In this document: positions 1,865-29,932 of the stretch, piece after piece
Position numbering within the stretch: the first letter of the stretch is position 1
Layout of the letters: each line of letters starts with the position of its first letter
Assembly: GCA_016873845.1 (NCBI GenBank)
Contig: VGVX01000022.1
Coordinates: 1-35,665, forward strand
Source: Ignavibacteria bacterium
GTDB taxonomy: Bacteria > Bacteroidota > Ignavibacteria > Ch128b
Length of the DNA: 35,665 nt
Reading direction: 5' to 3'
The notes under the pieces: generated by a model
Seen by the model: the letters and a program-made list of their open reading frames with translations, nothing else
The model's database searches: none
Told to the model about the DNA's origin: nothing
Position numbers and translations under genes: made by a program

Positions 1865-2731
1865 ATGCAGAATAAAATCGAGTTTTTTCTTTTTAATCTA
1901 CTATCATTTCTTCTCACTCGTTTTTCTCTGGGGGTTGCAAGAAAATTTGCAACGCTGCTGGCAGCTTTTTTTTACTTTTTTATTCCGCTTAGAAAAAGTG
2001 TAGCAATAAAAAATCTTCGATTAGTTTTTCCAGAGTACACAGAAAAAAAACTGAATCAGATTTTATACTGTTCGTATATCAATTTCTTTATCGTTCTTAT
2101 CGAAATATTCTACATGCGAGTAATAGAACAGGAGGAATTGAAATCGATGGTAAAAATAAAGAAGCCTGAATTAATTCGTGAATCTCTGAGAAAAGATAAA
2201 GGACTCCTCTTCTTATCGGCGCATTTCGGCAATTGGGAAATTCTTGCTGCTTCGACTGCTCTTACCATTGGAATCCCCTATTCAATAATTGTGAAACCGC
2301 TTCGGAACAATTTGGTTGATAAGTTTATGAATACCATGCGTTGTAAATGGGGAAATAAAGTAGTTCGAATGGGTGTATCTGTGAAAGATATTTATCGAGA
2401 ATTGTTAAATAAAAATGTAGTTGCACTAGTGGCCGACCAGCGAGCCGCGGAAGGTTCACTGAAAATTCCTTTTTTCGGGAGAGAAACTTCTGTTTTTTTT
2501 GGACCCGCGACTCTATCAGTAAAAACCGGTGCACCAATACTCTTGGGAATTGCTGTGCGGCAAAATGATTTCAGTTATGAAGTCGATTTGAAAGAGATAA
2601 AGATTGAGGATAATTTATCTGAAGATCAAAAAATTGAATCTATAACCAAAGAATATATTCGGCAATTGGAATTGATAATTAGAAAGAATCCCGAGCAATG
2701 GCTTTGGTTCCATGATAGATGGAAACATTGA
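1865..2731 (+). CDS. Lysophospholipid/lipid A acyltransferase (LpxL/HtrB family)
   Basis: Membrane-anchored acyltransferase, predicted to transfer a secondary acyl chain to a lipid A precursor at the inner membrane. The N-terminal 20-45 residues are strongly hydrophobic (FFLFNLLSFLLTRFSLG), consistent with an anchor. The catalytic H-x4-E motif is visible as HFGNWE (His120 to Glu125 from the ATG). A later ALVADQR...FFGRE segment matches the conserved second block of the family. I chose ATG 1865; a TTG at 1853 in the same frame would add four residues, but neither has a clear ribosome-binding site. The 3' end overlaps the heptosyltransferase gene by 13 bases, so the two LPS genes are probably translationally coupled. 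Substrate specificity cannot be read from sequence. Confidence 0.85.
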   Translation: MQNKIEFFLFNLLSFLLTRFSLGVARKFATLLAAFFYFFIPLRKSVAIKNLRLVFPEYTEKKLNQILYCSYINFFIVLIEIFYMRVIEQEELKSMVKIKKPELIRESLRKDKGLLFLSAHFGNWEILAASTALTIGIPYSIIVKPLRNNLVDKFMNTMRCKWGNKVVRMGVSVKDIYRELLNKNVVALVADQRAAEGSLKIPFFGRETSVFFGPATLSVKTGAPILLGIAVRQNDFSYEVDLKEIKIEDNLSEDQKIESITKEYIRQLELIIRKNPEQWLWFHDRWKH

Positions 2732-3768
2732 TTAAAAAGCAAACTAAAATCTTAATTTTACAGACCGCTTTCTTGGGCGATGTACTGCTAACTCTCCCGT
2801 TGATTCATCATTTACGGAAAATATTTTCAGACTCGGAAATTGATTTAATAGTTAGACCGGATGCAGCCGAGGTAAGTGAAATTTCTTGCGATCTTAATCG
2901 TGTGATCATCTTTGATAAAAAGAAAAACGGATTGAGAAATACATTCAATCTTATTAAAGCCATCCGAAAGAAAAAATATGATTTACTGATTTCGCCGCAT
3001 CGTTCTTACCGTAGCAGTCTAATTTCTTTCTTTAGTGGAATACCCAAACGGATTGGATTTGATACTGCGAGTTTCTCAATTTTATATTCCGATAAAGTCA
3101 AATATCAAAAAAATGTACATGAAGTGGAAAGAAATATTTCCCTAATTTCGGAGTTCAGAAAAGTTCAGGAGTGGGAGCAATTAATTCCTATCAAACCGTC
3201 TGCTGCGGAATTGCACAAGAAGTTAATATCGTGGAATAATTCTAAACAACAAATCGTTTGTATTGCTCCATTTTCAGAGTGGTACACAAAAAGATATCCT
3301 CAAGATTATTTTATAAAACTAATCGAATTGTTAATTAAATCAGAAATAAAAGTATTAATAATTGGCGGGAAAAAAGATTTAAGTGATTCAAATAAAATTG
3401 TGGAGAGTATTTCTTCCAGCGAATGTGTGTTAAATTTGACTGGTCAATTAAGCATTCGAGAATCCATAGATGTGATTGGAAAATGTAATTTACTGATAAG
3501 CAATGATAGTGCTCCAACTCACATGGCAATGTTTACGACCTGTCCAGTGCTGACGATCTACGGTTCAACGATACCAGGATTTGGATTTTATCCTTACCGT
3601 TCGTTTGATTCGGTGATACAAATTGATGAATTATACTGCAAGCCATGCGGGATACATGGATTTATTACTTGTCCCGAAAATCATTTTCGGTGCATGAGAG
3701 AGTTGAAACCCGAACTTGTTTTTGAACAAGTCAAAAAAATGCTTCAAAACGAAATAATATCTTTATAG
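2719..3768 (+). CDS. Glycosyltransferase family 9, lipopolysaccharide heptosyltransferase
   Basis: A 349-residue GT9 protein, expected to move heptose (or a related sugar) from an ADP-sugar donor to the LPS inner core on the cytoplasmic face. The N-terminal Rossmann-like start, FLGDVLLTLPLIHHLRK, is the family signature. The donor-binding block in the C-terminal half is SNDSAPTHMA, followed by PVLTIYGSTIPGFGFYP. The cysteine-containing PCGIHGF...CP...CM tail is typical of WaaF-like proteins. The ATG lies inside the end of the acyltransferase gene. WaaF (heptosyltransferase II) is the closest guess, but WaaC/WaaQ-type specificity cannot be excluded. Confidence 0.88.
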   Translation: METLIKKQTKILILQTAFLGDVLLTLPLIHHLRKIFSDSEIDLIVRPDAAEVSEISCDLNRVIIFDKKKNGLRNTFNLIKAIRKKKYDLLISPHRSYRSSLISFFSGIPKRIGFDTASFSILYSDKVKYQKNVHEVERNISLISEFRKVQEWEQLIPIKPSAAELHKKLISWNNSKQQIVCIAPFSEWYTKRYPQDYFIKLIELLIKSEIKVLIIGGKKDLSDSNKIVESISSSECVLNLTGQLSIRESIDVIGKCNLLISNDSAPTHMAMFTTCPVLTIYGSTIPGFGFYPYRSFDSVIQIDELYCKPCGIHGFITCPENHFRCMRELKPELVFEQVKKMLQNEIISL

Positions 3769-19081: not shown

Positions 19082-20665
19082 TTATATCTTCAAAATTTTG
19101 TCAACTTCCTTTTTATCAAGATCCATTACATAAGGAATTCCTGTTATCTCGGCGGATTCCTTGGTTAAGCACGCAAGGTCGTCACGAGTCATGAACTCAA
19201 GTTTGAATTTCCTGCTTCCGCACATTAATTGACGCAAACCCTGAGCCAAACGTTCGTAATAGGTATAAAGTCCTAAAGCTCCGACCGGAACTTTTTGAAA
19301 TTCATTATCACCAAGCTCCTTCCTGAGATGAGAAGCAGTGACAAAAATCTCATCTACCGATCTTCCGAACCGCTCAATATAAACCGGAAGCTGCCCGTCA
19401 TCTATTGCTCTGCCAATAGTTTTTCCAACCATAGCTGCTGCAATTGGTGCTCTTGCCATACCAACGAGTTTAGTAAATGGGGCGCCAAGTGCCAATCCTT
19501 TAAAGATTTGATCTTCAAATGTAAATCCTCCGGCGAATGCAACTGCCGGAACGTAGTGTCCTTTGTCTGATAACTTTTTGATATAACTATAAGCTAGTGA
19601 GTGTAATTCAAGTGGGGGGATACCCCATTCATTCATCATTCTCCATGGACTCATTCCGGTGCCTCCGCCTGCACCGTCGATTGTGAGCAGATCGATTTTA
19701 TATTTTGAGCAAAATACTATTGCACGCGCGAGATCGAGCGGGCGATAAGCACCTGTTTTCAGAAATATATATTTTGCTCCGGCTTTTTTTAACTCTTCAA
19801 CTCTTTTAGCAAATCCTTCTTCCGAAACCATTCCAATTCTAGAATGTCTTTCGAATTCAGTAAATGCACCTTTCTCAAAAGCCTGAATTACATTTGCATC
19901 GGTGGGATTTGGTAGAACAATATAACCTCTATCATGAAGGAGCTGAGCTTTTTTTAGATCTCTGATTTTAACCTCACCTCCAATATTTTTGGCGCCTTGT
20001 CCCCATTTTAATTCAACTATTTCAACACCTAATTTTTCGATTGCATATTCTTGAACACCGAGCCGGGTATCTTCAACATTTGCCTGAAGGATAATGGCAC
20101 CATAATCATTTCGTTTAAAATCGTTATAAAGTTGGACTCTGCGTTTTAGATCAACCGTGTCGATTACTTTCCCGTTCTTTATTACTGTTTGAGGATCCAT
20201 ACCAGCAACATTTTCACCGATGGTAAGTCCGGTTCCTGATATTGCTGATCCAATTGCTAATCCTTCCCAATTATTCTTAGCAATATTGGTAGAGCCAATT
20301 CCTGGAATAATCCAAGGATATTTAAATTTGATACCGCCATCATGCCCGAAATGAACTTCGAGATTTACAGCAGGGAAGATTGCTTTATCGCTGTCTGCTT
20401 CTATTCCTGAAGCACCTATTACTCCTCCCATAATGTTTAAATGAGAATAATCTATGGGATAGACTTTTTCCGCGGCGGTTGTTATTACGCCAAATGGTTG
20501 AGGATAGATTACCTCGTGACCTCTATAAGCTGATTTACCGATTTCACACATCCCAATACAACCGTCGACACAGGTTACGCACATTCCGGAAGAGGGAGTG
20601 ATACTGCCGTCAGTTCTGTTTTTTGTTAATGTAGCTGCAGACGAATTAATTCTTGAGTACGACAT
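19082..20665 (-). CDS. FMN-binding glutamate-synthase-like protein (GltB synthase domain only)
   Basis: A 527-residue protein homologous to the FMN-binding (alpha/beta)8 synthase domain of glutamate synthase. TIDGAGGGTGMSPWRMM, HFGHDGGIKFKYPW and ELKWGQGAKNIGGEV are recognisable blocks. The glutaminase domain is missing. So is the cysteine cluster that binds 3Fe-4S in classical GltB: where CPVGIATQ is expected it has VPVGALGLYTY. It carries instead an N-terminal Cys29-x2-Cys32-x3-Cys36-x3-Cys40 motif, a likely 4Fe-4S site. The ATG directly follows the stop of the HoxU-like gene, so both are made together. True substrate unknown: ammonia-dependent glutamate synthesis, its reverse, or another FMN chemistry. 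Confidence 0.82.
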   Translation of the reverse strand: MSYSRINSSAATLTKNRTDGSITPSSGMCVTCVDGCIGMCEIGKSAYRGHEVIYPQPFGVITTAAEKVYPIDYSHLNIMGGVIGASGIEADSDKAIFPAVNLEVHFGHDGGIKFKYPWIIPGIGSTNIAKNNWEGLAIGSAISGTGLTIGENVAGMDPQTVIKNGKVIDTVDLKRRVQLYNDFKRNDYGAIILQANVEDTRLGVQEYAIEKLGVEIVELKWGQGAKNIGGEVKIRDLKKAQLLHDRGYIVLPNPTDANVIQAFEKGAFTEFERHSRIGMVSEEGFAKRVEELKKAGAKYIFLKTGAYRPLDLARAIVFCSKYKIDLLTIDGAGGGTGMSPWRMMNEWGIPPLELHSLAYSYIKKLSDKGHYVPAVAFAGGFTFEDQIFKGLALGAPFTKLVGMARAPIAAAMVGKTIGRAIDDGQLPVYIERFGRSVDEIFVTASHLRKELGDNEFQKVPVGALGLYTYYERLAQGLRQLMCGSRKFKLEFMTRDDLACLTKESAEITGIPYVMDLDKKEVDKILKI

Positions 20666-21361
20666 TTATTTAACTCCTTTATTTTCTAAATCTACTATTT
20701 CGCATGCTACACATGGATCCATGTAGCACATCATATTTTGAAAGTGTTCTTTTTCCACGCAGGGCGGAGAAATATTTGCACATCCGCCGCATACTGCTTT
20801 TTCAGGATCGATATAAGTACATCTTAGTTGACAAGCCGGACAAACATAAATACACCCGCCGCAAAGCCTGCAAACTTCGGATTTGATATCGAATGGTGTT
20901 CCGATACTTCGCTTTTCGCCGCGTCCTCTAAATCCAATGGCCTTCGCGACCATCTGTTCATTACACATTCTCACGCACAATCCGCAAAGAATACAATCTT
21001 CATATTCTTGTTTAAATCGCTGTTGTCTTACATCATGTTGGGAAGCAATATCTTGAATTATTTTGGATTGCGGGCAAGATGCTAATAACAATTCGATAAC
21101 CATTTTTCTTGCTCTCATAACTCGTACAGAACCAGTTTTAACTTTTAATCCTTCTTCGGCCGGATATGTACAAGAAGATACCAGCTTAGCTCTTTCACCT
21201 TCGCCGATTTCAACTACACACAATCTGCATGCACCATACGGAGTTAAGCCTTCCAAGTGGCACAGAGTTGGAATTGGGAATCCTATAAATTGAGCAGCTT
21301 CTAAAATTGTACTCCCTTTTTCAACTGAAACTGATAATCCATTTATTTTTAATGTGATCAT
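20666..21361 (-). CDS. HoxU/NuoG-N-like iron-sulfur electron carrier
   Basis: A 231-residue protein. Residues 1-75 are a plant-type 2Fe-2S domain with ligands Cys34, Cys45, Cys48 and Cys64. Two 4Fe-4S motifs follow: Cys123, 126, 129, 133 (DCILCGLCVRMC) and Cys164, 167, 170, 174 (VCRLCGGCIYVC). The usual His-Cys3 cluster between them is not evident. The last 55 residues hold eight further cysteines (177, 181, 191, 194, 201, 212, 217, 220), suggesting another cluster or a metal site. Related subunits carry electrons from NuoF-type flavoproteins in diaphorases and bifurcating enzymes. The start overlaps the NuoF-GltD stop (ATGA). Confidence 0.85.
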   Translation of the reverse strand: MITLKINGLSVSVEKGSTILEAAQFIGFPIPTLCHLEGLTPYGACRLCVVEIGEGERAKLVSSCTYPAEEGLKVKTGSVRVMRARKMVIELLLASCPQSKIIQDIASQHDVRQQRFKQEYEDCILCGLCVRMCNEQMVAKAIGFRGRGEKRSIGTPFDIKSEVCRLCGGCIYVCPACQLRCTYIDPEKAVCGGCANISPPCVEKEHFQNMMCYMDPCVACEIVDLENKGVK

Positions 21362-24300
21362 GTAACTACCTCCGAACCTTTATTAACAGTTTCATTTACT
21401 TTTTCCAAAGATTGCGTGAATTCCAGATCGCATCTCAAACATCGACTCGCTTCATACCTGGCAGATTCATCCGACAATACTTTCTCGACTTCTTCTAATC
21501 CTTTTCTCCTTCGTTCTAAAGAGATAGTCGGCAATTTTATTCTTGCTAATTGCTGCTCATCTGATTGTTCACCGTTCACTGGTGGGATGTATATTTTTGG
21601 GAGATTGACCTCAAACGGTTGATTTAATTTCTGAGCTTGCAAATATCGATTAATCATAATTGCAGCTTTTTTCCCTGCAGCAATTGCTTCAATTACCGTT
21701 TTTGGGCCAGTAACGACATCTCCACCGGCAAATACTCCTTTCCGATTTGTTTGAAGAGTCTCTTTATCAACGATTAGTGTTCCCCATTTATCTACTTTAA
21801 TTCCCATTTCAGAAATATAGGCCACGTCAGGAGTATCGCCAATGGTGACAATTAAAGTATCAAATTCGAATGATTCTTCTGTACCAGGAATTGGTACTGG
21901 ATTTCTTCTGCCGCCTGGATCTATTTCACCTAACTGATTTCTAATTACTTCGACTCCCGCGAGTTTGCTATTTCGTGAATGAATTTTAACTGGCGAGACT
22001 AATGTTATTAAATTGATACCTTCTTCTATTGCCGCATCAATCTCATGTTGAAGTGCAGGCATTTCTTTCCGAGTTCGCCTGTACAGTACAGTGACGCTTT
22101 CCACTCCGTCTTGTCTCAACGAGACTCTTGCAGCGTCAATTGCAGAATCCCCGCCGCCAATTACTCCAACTTTACCTTTAGCAAGATTTCTTCCCTTTAA
22201 ATTAAATTCTTTCAAAAACTCGATCGCAGGATAAACACCATCCAAATCTTCCCCTTCAATGTTTAGGAGTTTACTTTTGTGAGCACCCATTGCTAGGAAG
22301 ATTGCTTTGTAATCGTCATTTAGAAGACTATCGATTGTAATATCTTTTCCCATTTCGATGTTGTATTGAATATTGATATTGCTATCGATCAGCGAATCAA
22401 TCTCTTTCTTAATTATATTTCGCGGGAGGCGATACTCTGGAATACCGCATGTTAACATCCCCCCAGGGATATTTTCTTTTTCAAAAATATCTACTTTATA
22501 ACCTTTCAATGATAAATAATGTGCTGCAGTTAGTCCGCCAGGGCCTGAACCTATTATGGCAATTTTGAATTTGTTAGCATTTTTGATTGTGGCTCGTTCG
22601 GGTTGATAGATTGAAGGCTCAATCCTATCGGTGATGAACCGCTTTAATGCTCTAATAGCAATTGCATCACCTCCGCTTGTACCTGCGCGGCACTTGTACT
22701 CGCAAGGATGGCTGCAGACTCTGGCACACACGGATGGAAAAGGATTTGTCTCTCTAATGGCTAAATATGCTTTTTCATACTCACCGTTAGAAATATGAGC
22801 AATATATCTCCAAGCTTCAGTCCCTATCGGACAAGTAGACTGACAAGGAGCTCCGACTAGTTCTCTGCATACTGCAGCCCTGCATTTTTTATTTTCAATA
22901 TGCTCTATATATTCATCTTTAAAATATTGCAGTGTAGATAATACTGGATTAGAAGCCGACTGACCTAATCCGCACATTGTTGTATCTTTTACTACGATAG
23001 CTAATTCTTCCAAAAGTTGTATTTTATCCAAAGTAGCTTTCCCCCGGGAAATGTCATCCAATAATTCATACATTCTCTGTGTACCTTTCCGGCACATAAA
23101 ACATTTACCGCATGATTCATCTTTTAAGAAGTTCATGAAATATTTTGCAACATCGACCATGCATGTATTTTCATCCATCACAATCATTCCGCCGGAACCC
23201 ATTATAGTACCTGCTTTACTCAGTGAGTCGTAATCAATAGGTATATCAAATTTATTAACTGGGATACAACCTCCCGAAGGACCACCTGTTTGAACTGCTT
23301 TTAACCGTGTCTCTTTTTCAGATCCGCTTCCAATGTCAAATACAATCTCTTTAATCGATATTCCCATTGGCACTTCGACCAATCCAGTGTTTTTTACTTT
23401 CCCAACAAGACTGAAGATTTTCGTTCCGGAATTATTTTTCGTGCCGATTTGAGCAAAGTGCTGAGCACCCATTTCAATTATTGCCGGGATATTTGCCCAT
23501 GTTTCAACATTATTTATTGCGGTTGGTTTTCCATAGATCCCTTTGGTAATAGGGAAGGGAGGTCTCTGAACCGGTTCTCCCATAAATCCTTCAATTGATT
23601 TTATTAGGGCAGTTTCTTCACCACACACGAAGGCACCGGCTCCTCTAACAATTTTTATATCGAAGGAAAAGGCGGTTCCTAAAATATTTTTTCCTAGGAA
23701 GCCAATTTCATTCGCAACTCGAAGTGCAATGATTAAATGTTTGATTGCAAGAGGGTATTCATTTCTAACATATATTATACCCTCGTTTGCACCAGTTGCA
23801 AAAGCACCAATCATCATTCCTTCAATGATACTGTGTGGATTACCCTCGAGTAAACTGCGATCCATATACGCTCCAGGGTCACCCTCATCGGCATTGCAAA
23901 CAAGGAATTTACCATATCCATTTTTTTGCTTCGAAAGAAGTTCCCATTTCTTTCCGGTTAAAAATCCTGCACCTCCTCTTCCTCGCAAACCAGATTTGAT
24001 AATTTCATCAATAATCCATTGGGAATCATTTTTGTGAAGGACATTAACGAAAGAATCATATCCACCGATTTCAATATAATTGTAAATTCTTATAGGATCG
24101 ACTTTCTCATTCCTAGAGAGTAAAATTCTATTCTGTTTTTTGAAGAACGGTATATCATCCTGTTTCTGGATCCTCTTACCCGAATCAAGATCAAAAAATA
24201 ATAGCTCCTCAATAATTTCTTCCCGCGAGATTGCCTTAATAATACTTGGTATGTCTTTAACAGAAACTTTAGGATAATAAGTTCTGTATGGTTCGACCAA

Positions 24301-24534
24301 AATAGAGGGTTCCATTTCACAAAAACCGTGACAACCTGTTATGCGCAATTTAATTTTTGCAGTAAGGTTTTTACTAATTAATTCTTTTTTCACTACTCTA
24401 ATTAAGTCATTAGCTCCGCTTGCTTGCCCGCATGTTCCAGCTGAAATTATTATTGTGGGAATATGTTCCATTTTATCAACTGAAATGAGACTTTGAAGTG
24501 AATGAAATTCGGAAATACTGTTTAGTCTATTCAT
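21358..24534 (-). CDS. NuoF-GltD fusion flavoprotein (NADH-FMN plus NADPH-FAD modules)
   Basis: A 1058-residue fusion. Residues 25-100 are a thioredoxin-like ferredoxin domain with Cys35, Cys68 and Cys72. Residues 150-530 are NuoF-like: the NADH/FMN loop GRGGAGF (185-191), VCGEETALIKSIEG, an SLBB segment and a 4Fe-4S site at Cys475, 478, 481 and 521. From about 545 it is GltD/NfnB-like: two 4Fe-4S cysteine groups (PCQSTCPIG; CARVCSHPCEYKC), the FAD Rossmann motif GSGPGGLTAA near 660, an NAD(P)-binding GGGDSAIDAA near 790, and a CxxC tail near 1033. One chain thus joins an NADH site to a probable NADPH site. It sits 18 bases after the NuoE-like gene. Bifurcating transhydrogenase is the leading guess. 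Confidence 0.9.
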   Translation of the reverse strand: MNRLNSISEFHSLQSLISVDKMEHIPTIIISAGTCGQASGANDLIRVVKKELISKNLTAKIKLRITGCHGFCEMEPSILVEPYRTYYPKVSVKDIPSIIKAISREEIIEELLFFDLDSGKRIQKQDDIPFFKKQNRILLSRNEKVDPIRIYNYIEIGGYDSFVNVLHKNDSQWIIDEIIKSGLRGRGGAGFLTGKKWELLSKQKNGYGKFLVCNADEGDPGAYMDRSLLEGNPHSIIEGMMIGAFATGANEGIIYVRNEYPLAIKHLIIALRVANEIGFLGKNILGTAFSFDIKIVRGAGAFVCGEETALIKSIEGFMGEPVQRPPFPITKGIYGKPTAINNVETWANIPAIIEMGAQHFAQIGTKNNSGTKIFSLVGKVKNTGLVEVPMGISIKEIVFDIGSGSEKETRLKAVQTGGPSGGCIPVNKFDIPIDYDSLSKAGTIMGSGGMIVMDENTCMVDVAKYFMNFLKDESCGKCFMCRKGTQRMYELLDDISRGKATLDKIQLLEELAIVVKDTTMCGLGQSASNPVLSTLQYFKDEYIEHIENKKCRAAVCRELVGAPCQSTCPIGTEAWRYIAHISNGEYEKAYLAIRETNPFPSVCARVCSHPCEYKCRAGTSGGDAIAIRALKRFITDRIEPSIYQPERATIKNANKFKIAIIGSGPGGLTAAHYLSLKGYKVDIFEKENIPGGMLTCGIPEYRLPRNIIKKEIDSLIDSNINIQYNIEMGKDITIDSLLNDDYKAIFLAMGAHKSKLLNIEGEDLDGVYPAIEFLKEFNLKGRNLAKGKVGVIGGGDSAIDAARVSLRQDGVESVTVLYRRTRKEMPALQHEIDAAIEEGINLITLVSPVKIHSRNSKLAGVEVIRNQLGEIDPGGRRNPVPIPGTEESFEFDTLIVTIGDTPDVAYISEMGIKVDKWGTLIVDKETLQTNRKGVFAGGDVVTGPKTVIEAIAAGKKAAIMINRYLQAQKLNQPFEVNLPKIYIPPVNGEQSDEQQLARIKLPTISLERRRKGLEEVEKVLSDESARYEASRCLRCDLEFTQSLEKVNETVNKGSEVVT

Positions 24535-24552: not shown

Positions 24553-25401
24553 TTAATAATTAATTCCAGTTATGTCGAGCATGTGCCACCTGCATCCACG
24601 CTTAGAACAAATTTGAATCATACCACCGCCTCGTACAATCATGGGAACTGTTAATGAACCACATTCCGGGCAAGGTGAACCACCGCGTAATTCAGCGTGA
24701 CAGAAGGGACAAAAAAAGTTACAAATAACACCTGTTGTAATTTCGTATTCTGATTCAATATTAAAGCTGCCGTATAAGCTCGAAAGTCTTCCCCAGCCAT
24801 GTTTTCGTTCGAAAGATAGTGTAAGCTTGATTGATGGGTGTCCATCAATCTTATGTTCTGAATCCATAAGACTATGATTGCACCTTGCACAGCTTATTTC
24901 AAGAGGAAAGATTCTTTCATCAGTTTTTATTTCAAACCGATCAAGACCTTCATTAGTTTGTTTGATTATTTGTTTTACCTTTCGAGAGGCAACTTTTGAA
25001 AAATAATGACCATCCGAAACTACAATTGGTCCCAAAGCACAGGCTCCAAGACAAGCGACAGTTTCGAGGGTGAATTTATTATTTTTTGTTGTATCACCAG
25101 CATGGATGCCAAGCTGTGCTTCGAATTCTTTTTGAATGTTTGGACCTCCCCTCACATGACATGCTGTACCAAGACAAACACAAACTAAATGTTTCCCCCG
25201 CGGCTTTAAGCTGAAGGATTTATAAAAAGTCGCGACTCCGTAAATGTCAACTAAAGACTTTCCAGTCTCTTCAGCAACTTTTTTTAATTCGGAAATGGGG
25301 AGATAACCGTGATCGGCTTGGATAGATTCGAGAATGGAAATTATTCCATCTCGGATTGGAACGGAAGGCTCTTCATTTTTAATTTGAGATTCGTGAGCCA
25401 T
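24553..25401 (-). CDS. NuoE-like 2Fe-2S protein with a C-terminal zinc-ribbon-like extension
   Basis: A 282-residue protein. The first 155 residues match NuoE/HydC: a helical start (ILESIQADHGYLPISELKKVAE), VDIYGVATFYKSF, and 2Fe-2S ligands Cys76, Cys81, Cys117 and Cys121 (CLGTAC; CLGAC). Ordinary NuoE ends near here. The extra C-terminal half has paired cysteines at about 171/174, 231/234, 244/247 and 265/270, which look like zinc knuckles; its role is unknown. AAAGGAG precedes the ATG at the usual distance. It heads the four-gene redox unit and would pass electrons with the NuoF part of the fusion protein. Confidence 0.88.
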   Translation of the reverse strand: MAHESQIKNEEPSVPIRDGIISILESIQADHGYLPISELKKVAEETGKSLVDIYGVATFYKSFSLKPRGKHLVCVCLGTACHVRGGPNIQKEFEAQLGIHAGDTTKNNKFTLETVACLGACALGPIVVSDGHYFSKVASRKVKQIIKQTNEGLDRFEIKTDERIFPLEISCARCNHSLMDSEHKIDGHPSIKLTLSFERKHGWGRLSSLYGSFNIESEYEITTGVICNFFCPFCHAELRGGSPCPECGSLTVPMIVRGGGMIQICSKRGCRWHMLDITGINY

Positions 25402-25503: not shown

Positions 25504-28485
25504 TTAGTTATTACTAGGCTTAATGATAATACCAATATTTTTATGTCCGTTAATTTTTACAGAAATTGAATTTTCAAATTGCAAATGTTTTGAATGATTA
25601 AGTGCTTCTTTTGGATGAATATTTAGCAACCAATCCCAATCAATAAATTCTTTAGGGCTTGACGAATTAACTGTAAAATAACCAATCTTAAATGATGTAA
25701 TATTCTGGAAAAAATGAGAACCTTGTGAGGGGGTGACAGTGAAGTCCTTAAAACCAGATTCAACAATCACACTTGCCCCAGAAATTTGATCCCACGTAAC
25801 TGGAATTCCGAGCCACGGATCGAGACTTCCCCAGCGTCCCACTCCAATTAAAATGTATGGCTTCTTTAGAGCGAGTAACTTCCCATTTAATTGACTGACT
25901 TCGAATGCAACTTCTTTGCTTTTACTTCTGTCAAATTTTTGATAATCAACAACAACAACATCATGTATACCATTTATAACACCATTTCCTAATACTTGTT
26001 CACTCTGGCAAATAAGTTCTTCTCTCTTGATGTTATTCAAGTTAATTTCCTCAAGTTCGTGACTAATCACTAAAGGTCGCATTTGAAGTAATGCAAATTC
26101 TTTTAGCTGGTCTGGCTGAACATTCATATTAACTGCGAATTCAATTTCAACATGAGTACCCATTCCCCATGCACCGATTTCACAAATTTTATCTAAAATT
26201 TCAGCAAGTGGAAAAACAGAGTGTTTAAGAATTGGAGCAAAAGTTACAACACGAGTTCCAGGGCGCGAAATACCATCATAAACAGCTTCGTTTTCCGGCG
26301 AATATGTTGAACCAACATAAGATAAAGTCATATCCTTTTCGGCTTTCGAGAGATCGAATTTCTGGACAAAAATATCAGGCGTAACGAAATTCTCAGATTC
26401 AAGCCTGCTGTCAAGGTTTAAAGCAAAAAATTCCTGCTGAGCATTTTTAATTGTTTCCTTTGTCGAAAAGAATTGCATGAGATGACGAGGATATTTTGGA
26501 CAAAATCGAACTGCAATTCCGCCATCAACCACTTGCTTGCCTAATCCCAATGCAACTAATGCGATGCCATCAGAAGATTTTTGTGGTGGTACAGGATAAA
26601 AGTTATAGGACTTTGCAACACCTGCAAAATCCGGATAAAATTGTCCTTCATGTTTTGCACCAACTAATCGCTGAATAATTACAGCCATTTTTTCTTCTTC
26701 GAGCCGATAAGTTGTGGCTTTCATATAATCTTTGGCTTTTCGAAAGAATGTCGAAGCATATACACATTTTATGCATGCGAGAAGTTCTTTTAACCTGATT
26801 CCTAGGTTTTCATCGTTGTTAGGGATCATGTAAGTTTGATATACACCTGCGAAAGGTTGAAATTGCGAATCTTCCAACAGACTTGAAGACCTGACCGCAA
26901 TTGGTCCGTTAATTATTTTGAGAAACTCAGATAATTTATTTTTAACATCTTCAGGAAATTTACTCACTTTTAGAAATCTTTTTATGAGTTCTTCATCACC
27001 TACATCACTGAAAGCAAATTCAGTTAGGTTGTTTTCCTCCATGAAAAAATCGAATGTGTCGGTTGCTAATACAACTGCCGAAGGTACTGAAATTTCTACG
27101 TTTGTAAAGTTGTAGCGAATATTGTGGTTGTTAATTATTGTATTTATAAAACCAAGACCTCTTGCTTTACCTCCTAATGAACCAGACCCAATTCGAGCAA
27201 AACTATTTGTTGGATCAAACGATTCCCTGCTAAAATCCGTAATAATTCCGCGTTGTCTTAATTTTTGATATTCTTTGAGAGCGTTAATTAGGTCTTCTCG
27301 TAATTCATTAACAGTATTGAAGTCCGTAACTTTTTGTGGTCTCAGACGGTGAGCGAGCCAAAATTCAGTACGAGCTTTAAGCCATTTGGAGAAGTGATTT
27401 CTTGAGGCATGAAATACGATACTTTCGTCCGGCACTTTTCTCAATTGTTCTTCAAGAGTAAACAGATTGTTTGCTTTACCGACAACATCTCCATTTAGCG
27501 TTTGAAAAACAAAGTCGCCAAATCCGAAATTTTTTAACATGAAGTCTCTTAATTCATGGAGCAACCACGGTGAACCTTTCAATAAAAATGCAGCTCCAAG
27601 TTTATGAGCTGCTTCGGAATGATCAGGATTACTCGACTGAAGAAGTATTGGAATATCATAATGTCTGCTTTTTACTTCTGCAGCAAATTTAATTCCTGCT
27701 TCAGGATCTTTAACACCTTGGCGTTTGAAGTTAATATCCGAAATAATTCCGAGTATGAAATCTTGGTACTTCTCGTAATAATCCATTGCCTCATCGTAAG
27801 TTGTTGTGAGTAAGATTTTTGGTCTTGCTCTCATTCTTAAAAAACGATGAGTCATGCTGATCCCTTCTGAGATCAGTCGTTGCGATTGTTTGAATATTTC
27901 GGTGTAAATTAATGGAAGATAAGATGAATAGAATTTGACATTATCTTCAACTAAGAGGATTGATTGCACCCCAACATTTTTTGTGTCGTTTTCGACATTA
28001 AGTTTATCTTCGAGATATTTAATTATTCCTATTAAAAGTTTGTAATCACCCTGCCAAATAAATATCTTATCAAAAATTGAGGTATCATAGTTTACAACAA
28101 GATCTTTCCGTTCTTGATTATCGTAGGCAAGAAGAATGATTGGCGTTGTAATATTCGCGTCACGCAGCAGTTTAGCGAATTTAATAACATGCATGTCTTC
28201 GATATGAAGCGTGGAAATTATTAGATCATAATTATTGTTTTCGGCTAATTCTTTCCCCTCTGTTCCAGTAGTGACATGGGTGATCTCCGGAGCGTGACTA
28301 AGGTTAAGTGTTTGATACTCTTGACGGATGAGGTCGTACAATCGTCCGTCTTCTTCAAACAAATAATAATCATACATACTCGAAACAAGAAGAATGTCAC
28401 GCACCTTTACCCGCATTAATTTTTGGAATTTTTTTATGCGGTTCCCAAAATTATCTTCGGTGAAAGCTATGTAGGGTGAAGTCAT
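25504..28485 (-). CDS. Receiver domains fused to a PEP/pyruvate-binding (PPDK/PPS N-terminal) domain
   Basis: A 993-residue protein. Two receiver-like domains come first. In the first (about 30-160) the phosphoacceptor Asp is replaced (DLIIST). The second (about 175-330) keeps the acidic pair (LLVEDN), the acceptor Asp (IISDIN) and the Lys (LLKGS). From about 430 it has the ATP-grasp domain of PEP synthase/pyruvate phosphate dikinase: GSGSLGGKARGLGF and GPIAVRSSSLLEDSQ. The swivelling phosphohistidine domain (GGxTSH) and the PEP-utilising barrel are absent, so it cannot be a complete PEP synthase. It may be a signal-controlled ATP-dependent enzyme or regulator. It lies between gdhA and the redox cluster with about 100-base gaps on each side. 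Confidence 0.82.
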   Translation of the reverse strand: MTSPYIAFTEDNFGNRIKKFQKLMRVKVRDILLVSSMYDYYLFEEDGRLYDLIRQEYQTLNLSHAPEITHVTTGTEGKELAENNNYDLIISTLHIEDMHVIKFAKLLRDANITTPIILLAYDNQERKDLVVNYDTSIFDKIFIWQGDYKLLIGIIKYLEDKLNVENDTKNVGVQSILLVEDNVKFYSSYLPLIYTEIFKQSQRLISEGISMTHRFLRMRARPKILLTTTYDEAMDYYEKYQDFILGIISDINFKRQGVKDPEAGIKFAAEVKSRHYDIPILLQSSNPDHSEAAHKLGAAFLLKGSPWLLHELRDFMLKNFGFGDFVFQTLNGDVVGKANNLFTLEEQLRKVPDESIVFHASRNHFSKWLKARTEFWLAHRLRPQKVTDFNTVNELREDLINALKEYQKLRQRGIITDFSRESFDPTNSFARIGSGSLGGKARGLGFINTIINNHNIRYNFTNVEISVPSAVVLATDTFDFFMEENNLTEFAFSDVGDEELIKRFLKVSKFPEDVKNKLSEFLKIINGPIAVRSSSLLEDSQFQPFAGVYQTYMIPNNDENLGIRLKELLACIKCVYASTFFRKAKDYMKATTYRLEEEKMAVIIQRLVGAKHEGQFYPDFAGVAKSYNFYPVPPQKSSDGIALVALGLGKQVVDGGIAVRFCPKYPRHLMQFFSTKETIKNAQQEFFALNLDSRLESENFVTPDIFVQKFDLSKAEKDMTLSYVGSTYSPENEAVYDGISRPGTRVVTFAPILKHSVFPLAEILDKICEIGAWGMGTHVEIEFAVNMNVQPDQLKEFALLQMRPLVISHELEEINLNNIKREELICQSEQVLGNGVINGIHDVVVVDYQKFDRSKSKEVAFEVSQLNGKLLALKKPYILIGVGRWGSLDPWLGIPVTWDQISGASVIVESGFKDFTVTPSQGSHFFQNITSFKIGYFTVNSSSPKEFIDWDWLLNIHPKEALNHSKHLQFENSISVKINGHKNIGIIIKPSNN

Positions 28486-28591: not shown

Positions 28592-29932
28592 CTAAACTAA
28601 ACCTTGATCAAGCATTGCATCTGCAACTTTCAGAAAACCTGCAATATTTGCACCATTTAAATAATTACCGGGTGTTCCGAATCTTTCAGCTGTTGTGATA
28701 CAAGTATCGTGTATGCTCTTCATGATCTGCTGAAGACGTTTATCAACTTCCTCTTTTGGCCAGGGCAAACGCATGCTGTTTTGCGACATCTCCAAACCAG
28801 AGACAGCCACACCGCCTGCATTAGATGCCTTGCCCGGTGCGTAAAGAATTTTCGCATCTCTAAAAATTTTATATCCATTAATGGTTGTTGGCATATTCGC
28901 ACCTTCGCTGACACATTGGCATCCATTCTCCACAAGAATTTTTGCATCAGCTTCGTCAAGTTCGTTTTGGGTGGCACATGGAAGGGCAACATCTACTTTA
29001 ACTTCCCATGGACGCTTACCTGCGAAAAACTTAACTTTAAATGTCTCAGCATAATCTTTCACTTCATCTTTTGCACTTGCGCGAAGCTTGATCATGTATT
29101 CAACTTTGTCTCCTTTAACTCCATCTGGATCATAAACATAACCATCTGGACCAGATAAGGTGACGACTTTGCCGCCAAGTTCATTCACTTTTTGCACTGC
29201 GCCCCAAGCAACATTTCCGAATCCAGAAACAGATACTAATTTTCCATCGAAACTTGTTCCTTTTGTTTTGAGCATTTCTTGAGCGAAATAAACCACACCA
29301 TAGCCAGTCGCTTCAGGACGTATCAGTGAACCACCCCAGCTTATACCTTTACCTGTTAATACGCCAGTAAATTCATTTTTTAATCTTTTATATTGTCCGA
29401 AAAGGAAGCCAATTTCTCTCGCACCGACTCCAATATCTCCAGCAGGAACATCAGTATCAGGTCCGATATGTCTGAAAAGTTCAGTCATGAAGCTTTGACT
29501 AAAACGCATCACTTCGTTATCACTTTTACCTTTTGGATCGAAGTCAGAACCACCTTTTCCGCCACCCATTGGAAGTGTTGTAAGAGAATTTTTAAATACT
29601 TGTTCGAAAGCCAAGAATTTTAAAATTCCTAAAGTTACCGAAGGGTGAAATCGCAATCCGCCTTTGTAAGGACCGATTGCACTATTCATTTCAATTCTAT
29701 ATCCGCGGTTAACACGAACTTCTCCCCGGTCATCCATCCAGGGGACGCGAAATAAAATGACTCTTTCAGGTTCAACCATTCTCTCAAGAATTTTTGCCGA
29801 ACGATATTCTGGATGCCGCTCAAAAACCGGTCCAAGCGATGCAGTTACTTCATCAACTGCTTGATGGAATTCAGGTTCACTTGGATTTTTTGCCTTTACC
29901 TCGCTCAAAATTTTCTTAGTATAATCTGACAT
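28592..29932 (-). CDS. gdhA: Glutamate dehydrogenase, NADP-type hexameric
   Basis: A 446-residue enzyme catalysing reversible reductive amination of 2-oxoglutarate with ammonia. The length and the blocks GPYKGGLRFHPSV, LPMGGGKGGSDFDPKGKS (catalytic Lys region), PAGDIGVGAREIG and the dinucleotide motif SGFGNVAWGA are those of the class I, usually NADPH-dependent, GDH. The segment TLSGPDG after the second beta strand, with no acidic residue there, agrees with NADPH preference. It is the first gene of the minus-strand run leading into the redox cluster; a candidate promoter lies about 135-165 bases upstream. Confidence 0.96.
   Translation of the reverse strand: MSDYTKKILSEVKAKNPSEPEFHQAVDEVTASLGPVFERHPEYRSAKILERMVEPERVILFRVPWMDDRGEVRVNRGYRIEMNSAIGPYKGGLRFHPSVTLGILKFLAFEQVFKNSLTTLPMGGGKGGSDFDPKGKSDNEVMRFSQSFMTELFRHIGPDTDVPAGDIGVGAREIGFLFGQYKRLKNEFTGVLTGKGISWGGSLIRPEATGYGVVYFAQEMLKTKGTSFDGKLVSVSGFGNVAWGAVQKVNELGGKVVTLSGPDGYVYDPDGVKGDKVEYMIKLRASAKDEVKDYAETFKVKFFAGKRPWEVKVDVALPCATQNELDEADAKILVENGCQCVSEGANMPTTINGYKIFRDAKILYAPGKASNAGGVAVSGLEMSQNSMRLPWPKEEVDKRLQQIMKSIHDTCITTAERFGTPGNYLNGANIAGFLKVADAMLDQGLV

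Follow-up and report, generated by a model that had tools for sequence, protein, structure and literature searches.

Members of the Bfu family (HydABC/BfuABC) are built from BfuB, whose FMN/NAD core carries the B1 cysteines and the B2 His/Cys ligands, a NuoE-like BfuC, and a BfuA with one [2Fe-2S] and two [4Fe-4S] clusters (PMC9304861). Virtually every Bfu member conserves the B2 ligands, whereas homologues that do not bifurcate lack them (PMC9304861). Third substrates with a potential above that of NAD (peroxide, quinones) have already been proposed; 17 BfuB clades were left without a function in this survey, which makes no mention of glutamate, GltB, GOGAT, GltS, or GltA (PMC9304861). In sub-type I BfuB of Hydrogenedentota [FeFe]-hydrogenases, the B3/B4 domain is replaced by a GltD-like DPD_II domain and an FAD/NAD(P) domain (PMC11406978), while Stn transhydrogenase (Nfn-Bfu) links NAD(H), NADP(H), and possibly ferredoxin through NuoE, NuoF, and GltD parts (PMC7483475, PMC10482914). 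On the glutamate side, GltBD (GOGAT) joins an FMN barrel of the PF01645 superfamily to a GltD-type subunit, and stand-alone FMN-binding glutamate synthase family proteins (COG0069 type) consist of a single barrel without glutaminase.

The window analyzed here, a 35,665-nt stretch of Ignavibacteria DNA, contains a minus-strand operon, ordered as BfuC (NuoE-like), BfuB (NuoF-like) fused to GltD, BfuA (HoxU-like), and finally a glutamate-synthase-like FMN barrel subunit, which we name GltX. BfuB and BfuA overlap by 4 nt, and the gap between BfuA and GltX is 0 nt. The locus shares the three subunits and their B1 and B2 ligands with the Bfu family but differs in that its third-substrate module is the glutamate-synthase-like barrel, and in a Cys-rich extension of BfuC and extra C-terminal cysteines of BfuA. 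The BfuB–GltD fusion itself is not new, because it has been published in Hydrogenedentota (PMC11406978); there, however, BfuA is an H-cluster hydrogenase, whereas here it is short and without H-cluster, and GltX is additional. In Stn, GltD is fused to a NuoG-like subunit rather than to BfuB, and no GltX is present. The arrangement also differs from that of the “glutamate synthase-linked” A2 hydrogenases of HydDB. No description of the GltX operon or of a glutamate-synthase-type Bfu complex was found in the open-access literature, so that the conserved four-gene electron-transfer complex around GltX is apparently undescribed.

Among 84,980 scanned genomes of prokaryote species, no fewer than 586 places encode a relative of GltX. 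The best 80 of these at least 586 relatives are 76–93% identical in GltX and come from more than 10 phyla, among them Bacteroidota, Ignavibacteriota, Zixibacteria, Planctomycetota (including the anammox organism Scalindua), Calditrichota, Acidobacteriota, Myxococcota, Elusimicrobia, Armatimonadota, and Spirochaetes; the many hosts are mostly uncultured bacteria. Gene order is the same in almost every locus whose contig is long enough to show it, the few exceptions having a fragmentary neighbor. Of the four subunits, GltX shows the highest conservation, and BfuB and BfuC show far less. Within its own group, the sole genome of the same genus has GltX, four genomes of the same family lack it, and it occurs in three genomes from a different family of the class. 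This patchy distribution, together with the intermixing of phyla on the GltX tree, suggests that the operon may have been transferred horizontally. As a set, 34 Bacteroidota matches were considered as GltX orthologues and rejected: all except the own genome are weak (25–36% identity over short stretches) and lie mostly in frames of 500–590 aa, and the nine examined are FMN-glutamate-synthase-family proteins.

GltX is a 527-aa open reading frame at 19082–20665. The initial annotation had treated this stretch as coding without stating a strand; the frame lies on the minus strand, and the plus strand contains many stops. At a family threshold of E ≤ 0.001, PF01645 (Glu_synthase) is the sole Pfam match (54.2 bits against a cut-off of 20.4, residues 279–399), and no NCBIfam model reaches that threshold. 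Across the 527 aa, Pfam detects no class II amidotransferase, central, or GXGXG domain, and profile searches find PF04898 and PF01493 nowhere in the own genome. A profile search of PDB sequences with GltX retrieves no glutamate-synthase relative, and plain phmmer retrieves none either. By profile–profile comparison, the closest proteins are the stand-alone family (E 3.5e-16, 329 columns), yet these keep the cysteines of CxxxxxCPVG and, in examples, carry Rieske-like or rubredoxin-like N-termini, of which GltX has neither.

The [3Fe-4S] site of GltB is lost as well. In profile and multiple alignments with the stand-alone family and GltB (hhalign and combined alignment), the CHxNxCPVG loop falls approximately on GltX residues 414–430 (GKTIGRAIDDGQLPVYI; 19376–19426, minus strand), where the three cysteines correspond to K415, I421, and L426. 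The initial annotation had correctly called the ligands missing but read the loop out of register, at VPVGALGLYTY (residues 459–469; 19259–19291, minus strand). This assignment is rejected: the segment lies downstream of the true loop and is a separate, GltX-specific conserved region. The absence of a [3Fe-4S] cluster nonetheless holds, because residues 414–430 are likewise without cysteine. Since the amidotransferase, central, and GXGXG domains and the [3Fe-4S] loop are all missing, GltX is not a GOGAT; judged by its sequence, it is a divergent glutamate-synthase FMN barrel without the usual helper domains and Fe–S site.

In their place, GltX has a four-cysteine motif of its own, Cys29-x2-Cys32-x3-Cys36-x3-Cys40 (20546–20581, minus strand). 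In an alignment of the window protein with 79 relatives from many phyla, all four positions are cysteine in 80 of 80 sequences, at exactly the residues first proposed, and the surrounding residues are largely invariant too (SGMC-T-C-DGC-GMCE-GKS). The remaining cysteines C319, C482, and C499 vary in the same alignment. The conservation of the motif far exceeds chance, and the contrast with the other cysteines indicates that a compact metal-binding motif is under strong selection. Its simplest occupant would be a [4Fe-4S] cluster, and the absolute conservation of the motif supports the earlier suggestion that this putative cluster may substitute for the missing one. The spacing resembles what we take to be the C-x2-C-x4-C-x3-C pattern of the first GltD cluster, minus one residue. 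The motif lies in a low-confidence part of the AlphaFold model, whose N-terminal 74 residues are without resolved structure.

The remainder of the model forms an FMN-type TIM barrel of moderate quality (pLDDT 70, pTM 0.72). With this model, Foldseek retrieves generic FMN barrels, best among them α-hydroxy-acid oxidases (lactate and glycolate oxidase), as weak matches (TM 0.3–0.4, rmsd 6–15 Å). The FMN core itself is retained: of the 57 positions that GltB and the stand-alone family both conserve, GltX keeps 28, including G150, E151, K220, Q223, K226, K303, GGTG 334–337, S339, and P340. Two claims of the initial annotation, that the FMN barrel motifs are present and that no glutaminase domain is attached, are thus borne out by the core residues and the Pfam profile. 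Conversely, only 17 of the 185 positions conserved in GltB alone are kept in the combined alignment, and the PPPHHDIYS loop conserved in GltB is absent from GltX. Nothing in GltB corresponds to the GltX-specific insertions at residues ~158–215 and ~255–272 or to the invariant motifs WRMMNEWG and PTGALGLYTYYERL. The proposed alignment check of the 2-oxoglutarate pocket, judged here by residue conservation, therefore leans against a simple GltB-like pocket while upholding the FMN core. With 28 of 57 shared but 17 of 185 GltB-only positions kept, GltX is likely a flavin hydride-transfer enzyme, while any 2-oxoglutarate site like that of GltB is conjectural. An ammonia-dependent reaction, one option raised in the initial annotation, is likewise a hypothesis.

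BfuB (21358–24534, minus strand) comprises a NuoF/HydB-like FMN/NAD(H) core followed by a GltD part with two 4Fe-4S sites, FAD, and NAD(P) domains. Its best PDB match is HydB of the bifurcating NiFe enzyme of A. mobile (7t2r_B, 639 bits), and alignment to this chain delimits a HydB-like part of residues 1–549 (22888–24534), which includes Cys458, Ser496, and His545; Cys551 and Cys556 follow shortly after its end. The core contains PF01512 and PF10589, and the B1 [4Fe-4S] ligands Cys475, Cys478, Cys481, and Cys521 are invariant. The B2 ligands, with identities taken from PMC9304861, map to C458, S496, H545, C551, and C556; C458, H545, C551, and C556 are invariant in all 51 long-form BfuB sequences, while position 496 is serine in 27 and threonine in 21 of the 51. 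In the thioredoxin-like N-terminus, the place of the B5 cluster, C68 and C72 are invariant, and C35 is present in 55% of the long BfuB forms and in 94% of the short ones; a full [2Fe-2S] ligand set was not found there.

The two-[4Fe-4S] ferredoxin domain B3/B4 is absent from the window BfuB by Pfam, and a GltD-like part takes its place (residues 550–1058; 21361–22887, minus strand; Fer4_20 and Pyr_redox_2). By this absence, the window BfuB departs from the Bfu definition, whereas 18 sister operons do not. Among the 78 loci in which the end of BfuB can be read, 60 (the window included) terminate in GltD and 18 in the two-[4Fe-4S] ferredoxin domain; the latter encode complete canonical BfuB proteins of ~616 aa that end in the classical CxxCxxCxxxC pair. 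On the GltX tree, parsimony requires 12 changes of the C-terminal module, and at least five when well-supported branches alone are counted. The output module, ferredoxin-type or GltD, has thus been swapped repeatedly around one catalytic subunit. Since the same GltX occurs now with a ferredoxin-type and now with a GltD/NADPH-type module, it appears indifferent to the low-potential carrier. This pairing of GltX on a Bfu core with either low-potential carrier module is the most telling new fact of the locus. In the GltD part, the CxxC of the first cluster is seemingly shifted to the extreme C-terminus (ASRC1032-LRC1035; 21361–21440). C564 and C568 stand at the start of the GltD part, followed by C603, C607, C611, and C615 for the second cluster (C564 to C615 at 22690–22845), and nearly all of these are invariant in the 51 long forms.

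BfuA (20666–21361, minus strand) is HoxU-like and contains PF13510 and PF12838 (Fer2_4 and Fer4_7), corresponding to a [2Fe-2S] and two [4Fe-4S] sites; its best PDB match, 9mqx_A, spans residues 3–187. Beyond the known HoxU/HydA structures, residues 188–231 (20669–20800) add C191, C194, C201, C212, C217, and C220, all invariant or nearly so, which possibly ligate an extra cluster at the contact with GltX. BfuC (24553–25401, minus strand) is a NuoE-like [2Fe-2S] subunit (PF01257; HydC-like, 8a6t_C) in which C76, C81, and C117 are invariant and C121 is conserved to 98%. Its C-terminal extension of ~130 aa (residues 151–282; 24556–24950) lies outside every NuoE/HydC PDB match. There, C171, C174, C231, C234, C244, C247, C265, and C270 are invariant in 58 sequences, making the extension a candidate zinc-ribbon or additional Fe–S domain.

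The initial annotation expected the FMN reaction to be fed by neighboring Fe–S subunits. This is very likely, because Fe–S/flavin subunits are invariably co-encoded; what it overlooked is that these partners are specifically a Bfu-type (HydBC-like) bifurcating core. The gene context makes it highly probable that GltX forms a shared complex with BfuA, BfuB, and BfuC, and we lean slightly toward bifurcation or confurcation by this complex. That GltX acts in it as the catalytic third-substrate subunit, wired to BfuA via its own Fe–S cluster, is the reading we favor, at about even odds. In such an enzyme, electrons of NAD(H) would enter or leave at the BfuB FMN and be split or merged at the Bfu-specific B1/FMN/B2 center. 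One branch would run through C1 of BfuC and B2 to B3/B4 or GltD and on to ferredoxin or NADP+, the output being GltD with FAD for NADP(H) in the window and the two-[4Fe-4S] domain for ferredoxin in the sister operons. The other would lead from NADH via the BfuB FMN, B1, and the BfuA clusters to the Cys29–40 cluster, which would replace the [3Fe-4S] cluster in handing single electrons to the barrel FMN. From the GltX FMN, a small substrate could then receive two electrons as hydride. An imine, 2-oxo acid, or amino acid would be the likeliest class, with 2-oxoglutarate plus ammonium to glutamate, or the reverse, as the leading single candidate.

A link to glutamate comes from the surroundings of the operon. 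The window encodes a glutamate dehydrogenase (GDH) of 446 aa at 28592–29932 on the minus strand (Pfam), the only one found in the own genome. GDH genes of more than one kind flank the operon in 10 other loci of several phyla, upstream or downstream. This corresponds to a ~40-fold enrichment (10 loci versus 0.25 expected in 606 kb of flank), with the expectation based on ~80 strong matches, rounded by hand, in 194 Mb of host genomes and a Poisson value of 2e-13 that is indicative only, the loci being non-independent. Bacterial GOGAT is absent from 41 of 50 host genomes, whereas a Bacteroidota sample lacks it in 42 of 148 cases. This comparison spans different phyla and may reflect lifestyle; no GXGXG domain exceeds the cut-off in the 41 GOGAT-less hosts or in the own genome. 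Glutamine synthetase is found in nine of 10 tested hosts. GDH occurs in 46 of the 50 and in the own genome, so that a further glutamate-forming enzyme is not needed. Three host genomes have neither GDH nor GOGAT. GltX as the sole nitrogen entry in such genomes was considered and rejected, since AlaDH-type matches in two of the three (G157, G193) indicate that other routes exist. The GDH enrichment and the missing GOGAT make a glutamate chemistry of GltX plausible; glutamate/2-oxoglutarate as its actual substrate is a possibility on the unlikely side.

Energetically, a glutamate branch would be the higher-potential one that pays for NADH-driven reduction of ferredoxin or NADP+. The standard potential of the 2-oxoglutarate plus ammonium/glutamate couple is about −0.12 V, compared with about −0.32 V for NAD and −0.4 to −0.5 V for ferredoxin. 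A comparable use of an exergonic branch, with NADH as the middle donor, is made by butyryl-CoA dehydrogenase/Etf. In its most specific form, the complex would be an ammonium-dependent glutamate synthase that bifurcates electrons and thereby drives reduction of ferredoxin by NADH in the short and of NADP+ in the long form, or, running backwards, a confurcating glutamate dehydrogenase; we regard this full version as distinctly doubtful.

The alternative that survives best is that the GltX substrate is unrelated to glutamate, for instance another amino acid, a hydroxy acid, or an enoyl-type compound, and that the nearby GDH serves general amino-acid catabolism. The loss of the GltB-specific residues (17 of 185 kept), the insertions and invariant motifs without GltB counterpart, and the presence of HutU, SerA, and adenosine deaminase next to the operon in the window all agree with this explanation, which we hold to be a serious contender somewhat short of even. 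The lactate and glycolate oxidases at the top of the Foldseek results point the same way, but these matches are weak and are explained by the shared FMN TIM-barrel fold, and PF01645 is the only family at E ≤ 0.001. It also has to account for a GDH co-location that recurs in several phyla, in varied position, and with more than one kind of GDH.

Alternatively, the complex could be a non-bifurcating NAD(P)H-driven enzyme, in which NuoEF, GltD, and HoxU act as a diaphorase that feeds a GltX reductase, possibly an ammonia-dependent glutamate synthase. NADH can reduce 2-iminoglutarate exergonically without any coupling, and the window BfuB does lack the B3/B4 ferredoxin domain. GOGAT, moreover, has GltD as its natural partner on the NADPH side (PMC8097209). 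For such a reaction, however, GltD alone would be enough, and BfuB, BfuC, and BfuA with their invariant B2 His/Cys ligands are hard to explain without a Bfu mechanism; the ferredoxin-type module of the 18 sister operons likewise points to a second electron carrier, and we judge a plain diaphorase unlikely. Very improbable, finally, is a non-catalytic GltX that serves as FMN/Fe–S electron gate or docking subunit of a Stn-like NADH/NADPH/ferredoxin transhydrogenase: NuoE, NuoF, and GltD make up the Stn parts list, although in another arrangement (PMC7483475), but the flavin-core motifs are kept, and being the most conserved subunit marks a constrained active site, not a scaffold.

Strongly conserved across many little-known anaerobic phyla, the GltX complex bears on the Bfu clades that have remained without function. 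If glutamate is the substrate of GltX as the catalytic subunit of a Bfu-type complex, the operon would represent a new coupling of nitrogen assimilation to energy conservation in many anaerobic lineages; if it is another compound, the glutamate-synthase FMN fold would have acquired a new reaction.

Several further genes recur beside the operon. In ~35 loci of many phyla, L005, L006, and L019 among them, genes for a histidine kinase and a sigma-54 response regulator of the NtrC type are conserved 4–8 kb upstream of GltX, which suggests inducible control. Between GDH and the operon, the window encodes a 993-aa response-regulator/PPDK_N protein with a PEP-synthase-like ATP-binding domain (25504–28485, minus strand; Pfam). 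Proteins of the PPDK_N type are encoded next to the operon in ~12 loci, other phyla included, and perhaps function in phosphotransfer signaling. A small protein of ~100–130 aa with the motif GLCxxCxxxxxC…CEE(Y/F), absent from the window and without Pfam match, is found in 39 of 80 loci, mostly upstream of bfuC; examples are L007:1647–1955, where the motif stands in two tandem copies, and L081 near 2729–3040. It may assist the complex as a metal-binding accessory. On an Elusimicrobia contig (L072:10016–10906 and the next gene), an open reading frame with a DHODB Fe–S binding domain lies directly downstream of the GltX operon and possibly encodes the small subunit of an NfnAB transhydrogenase.
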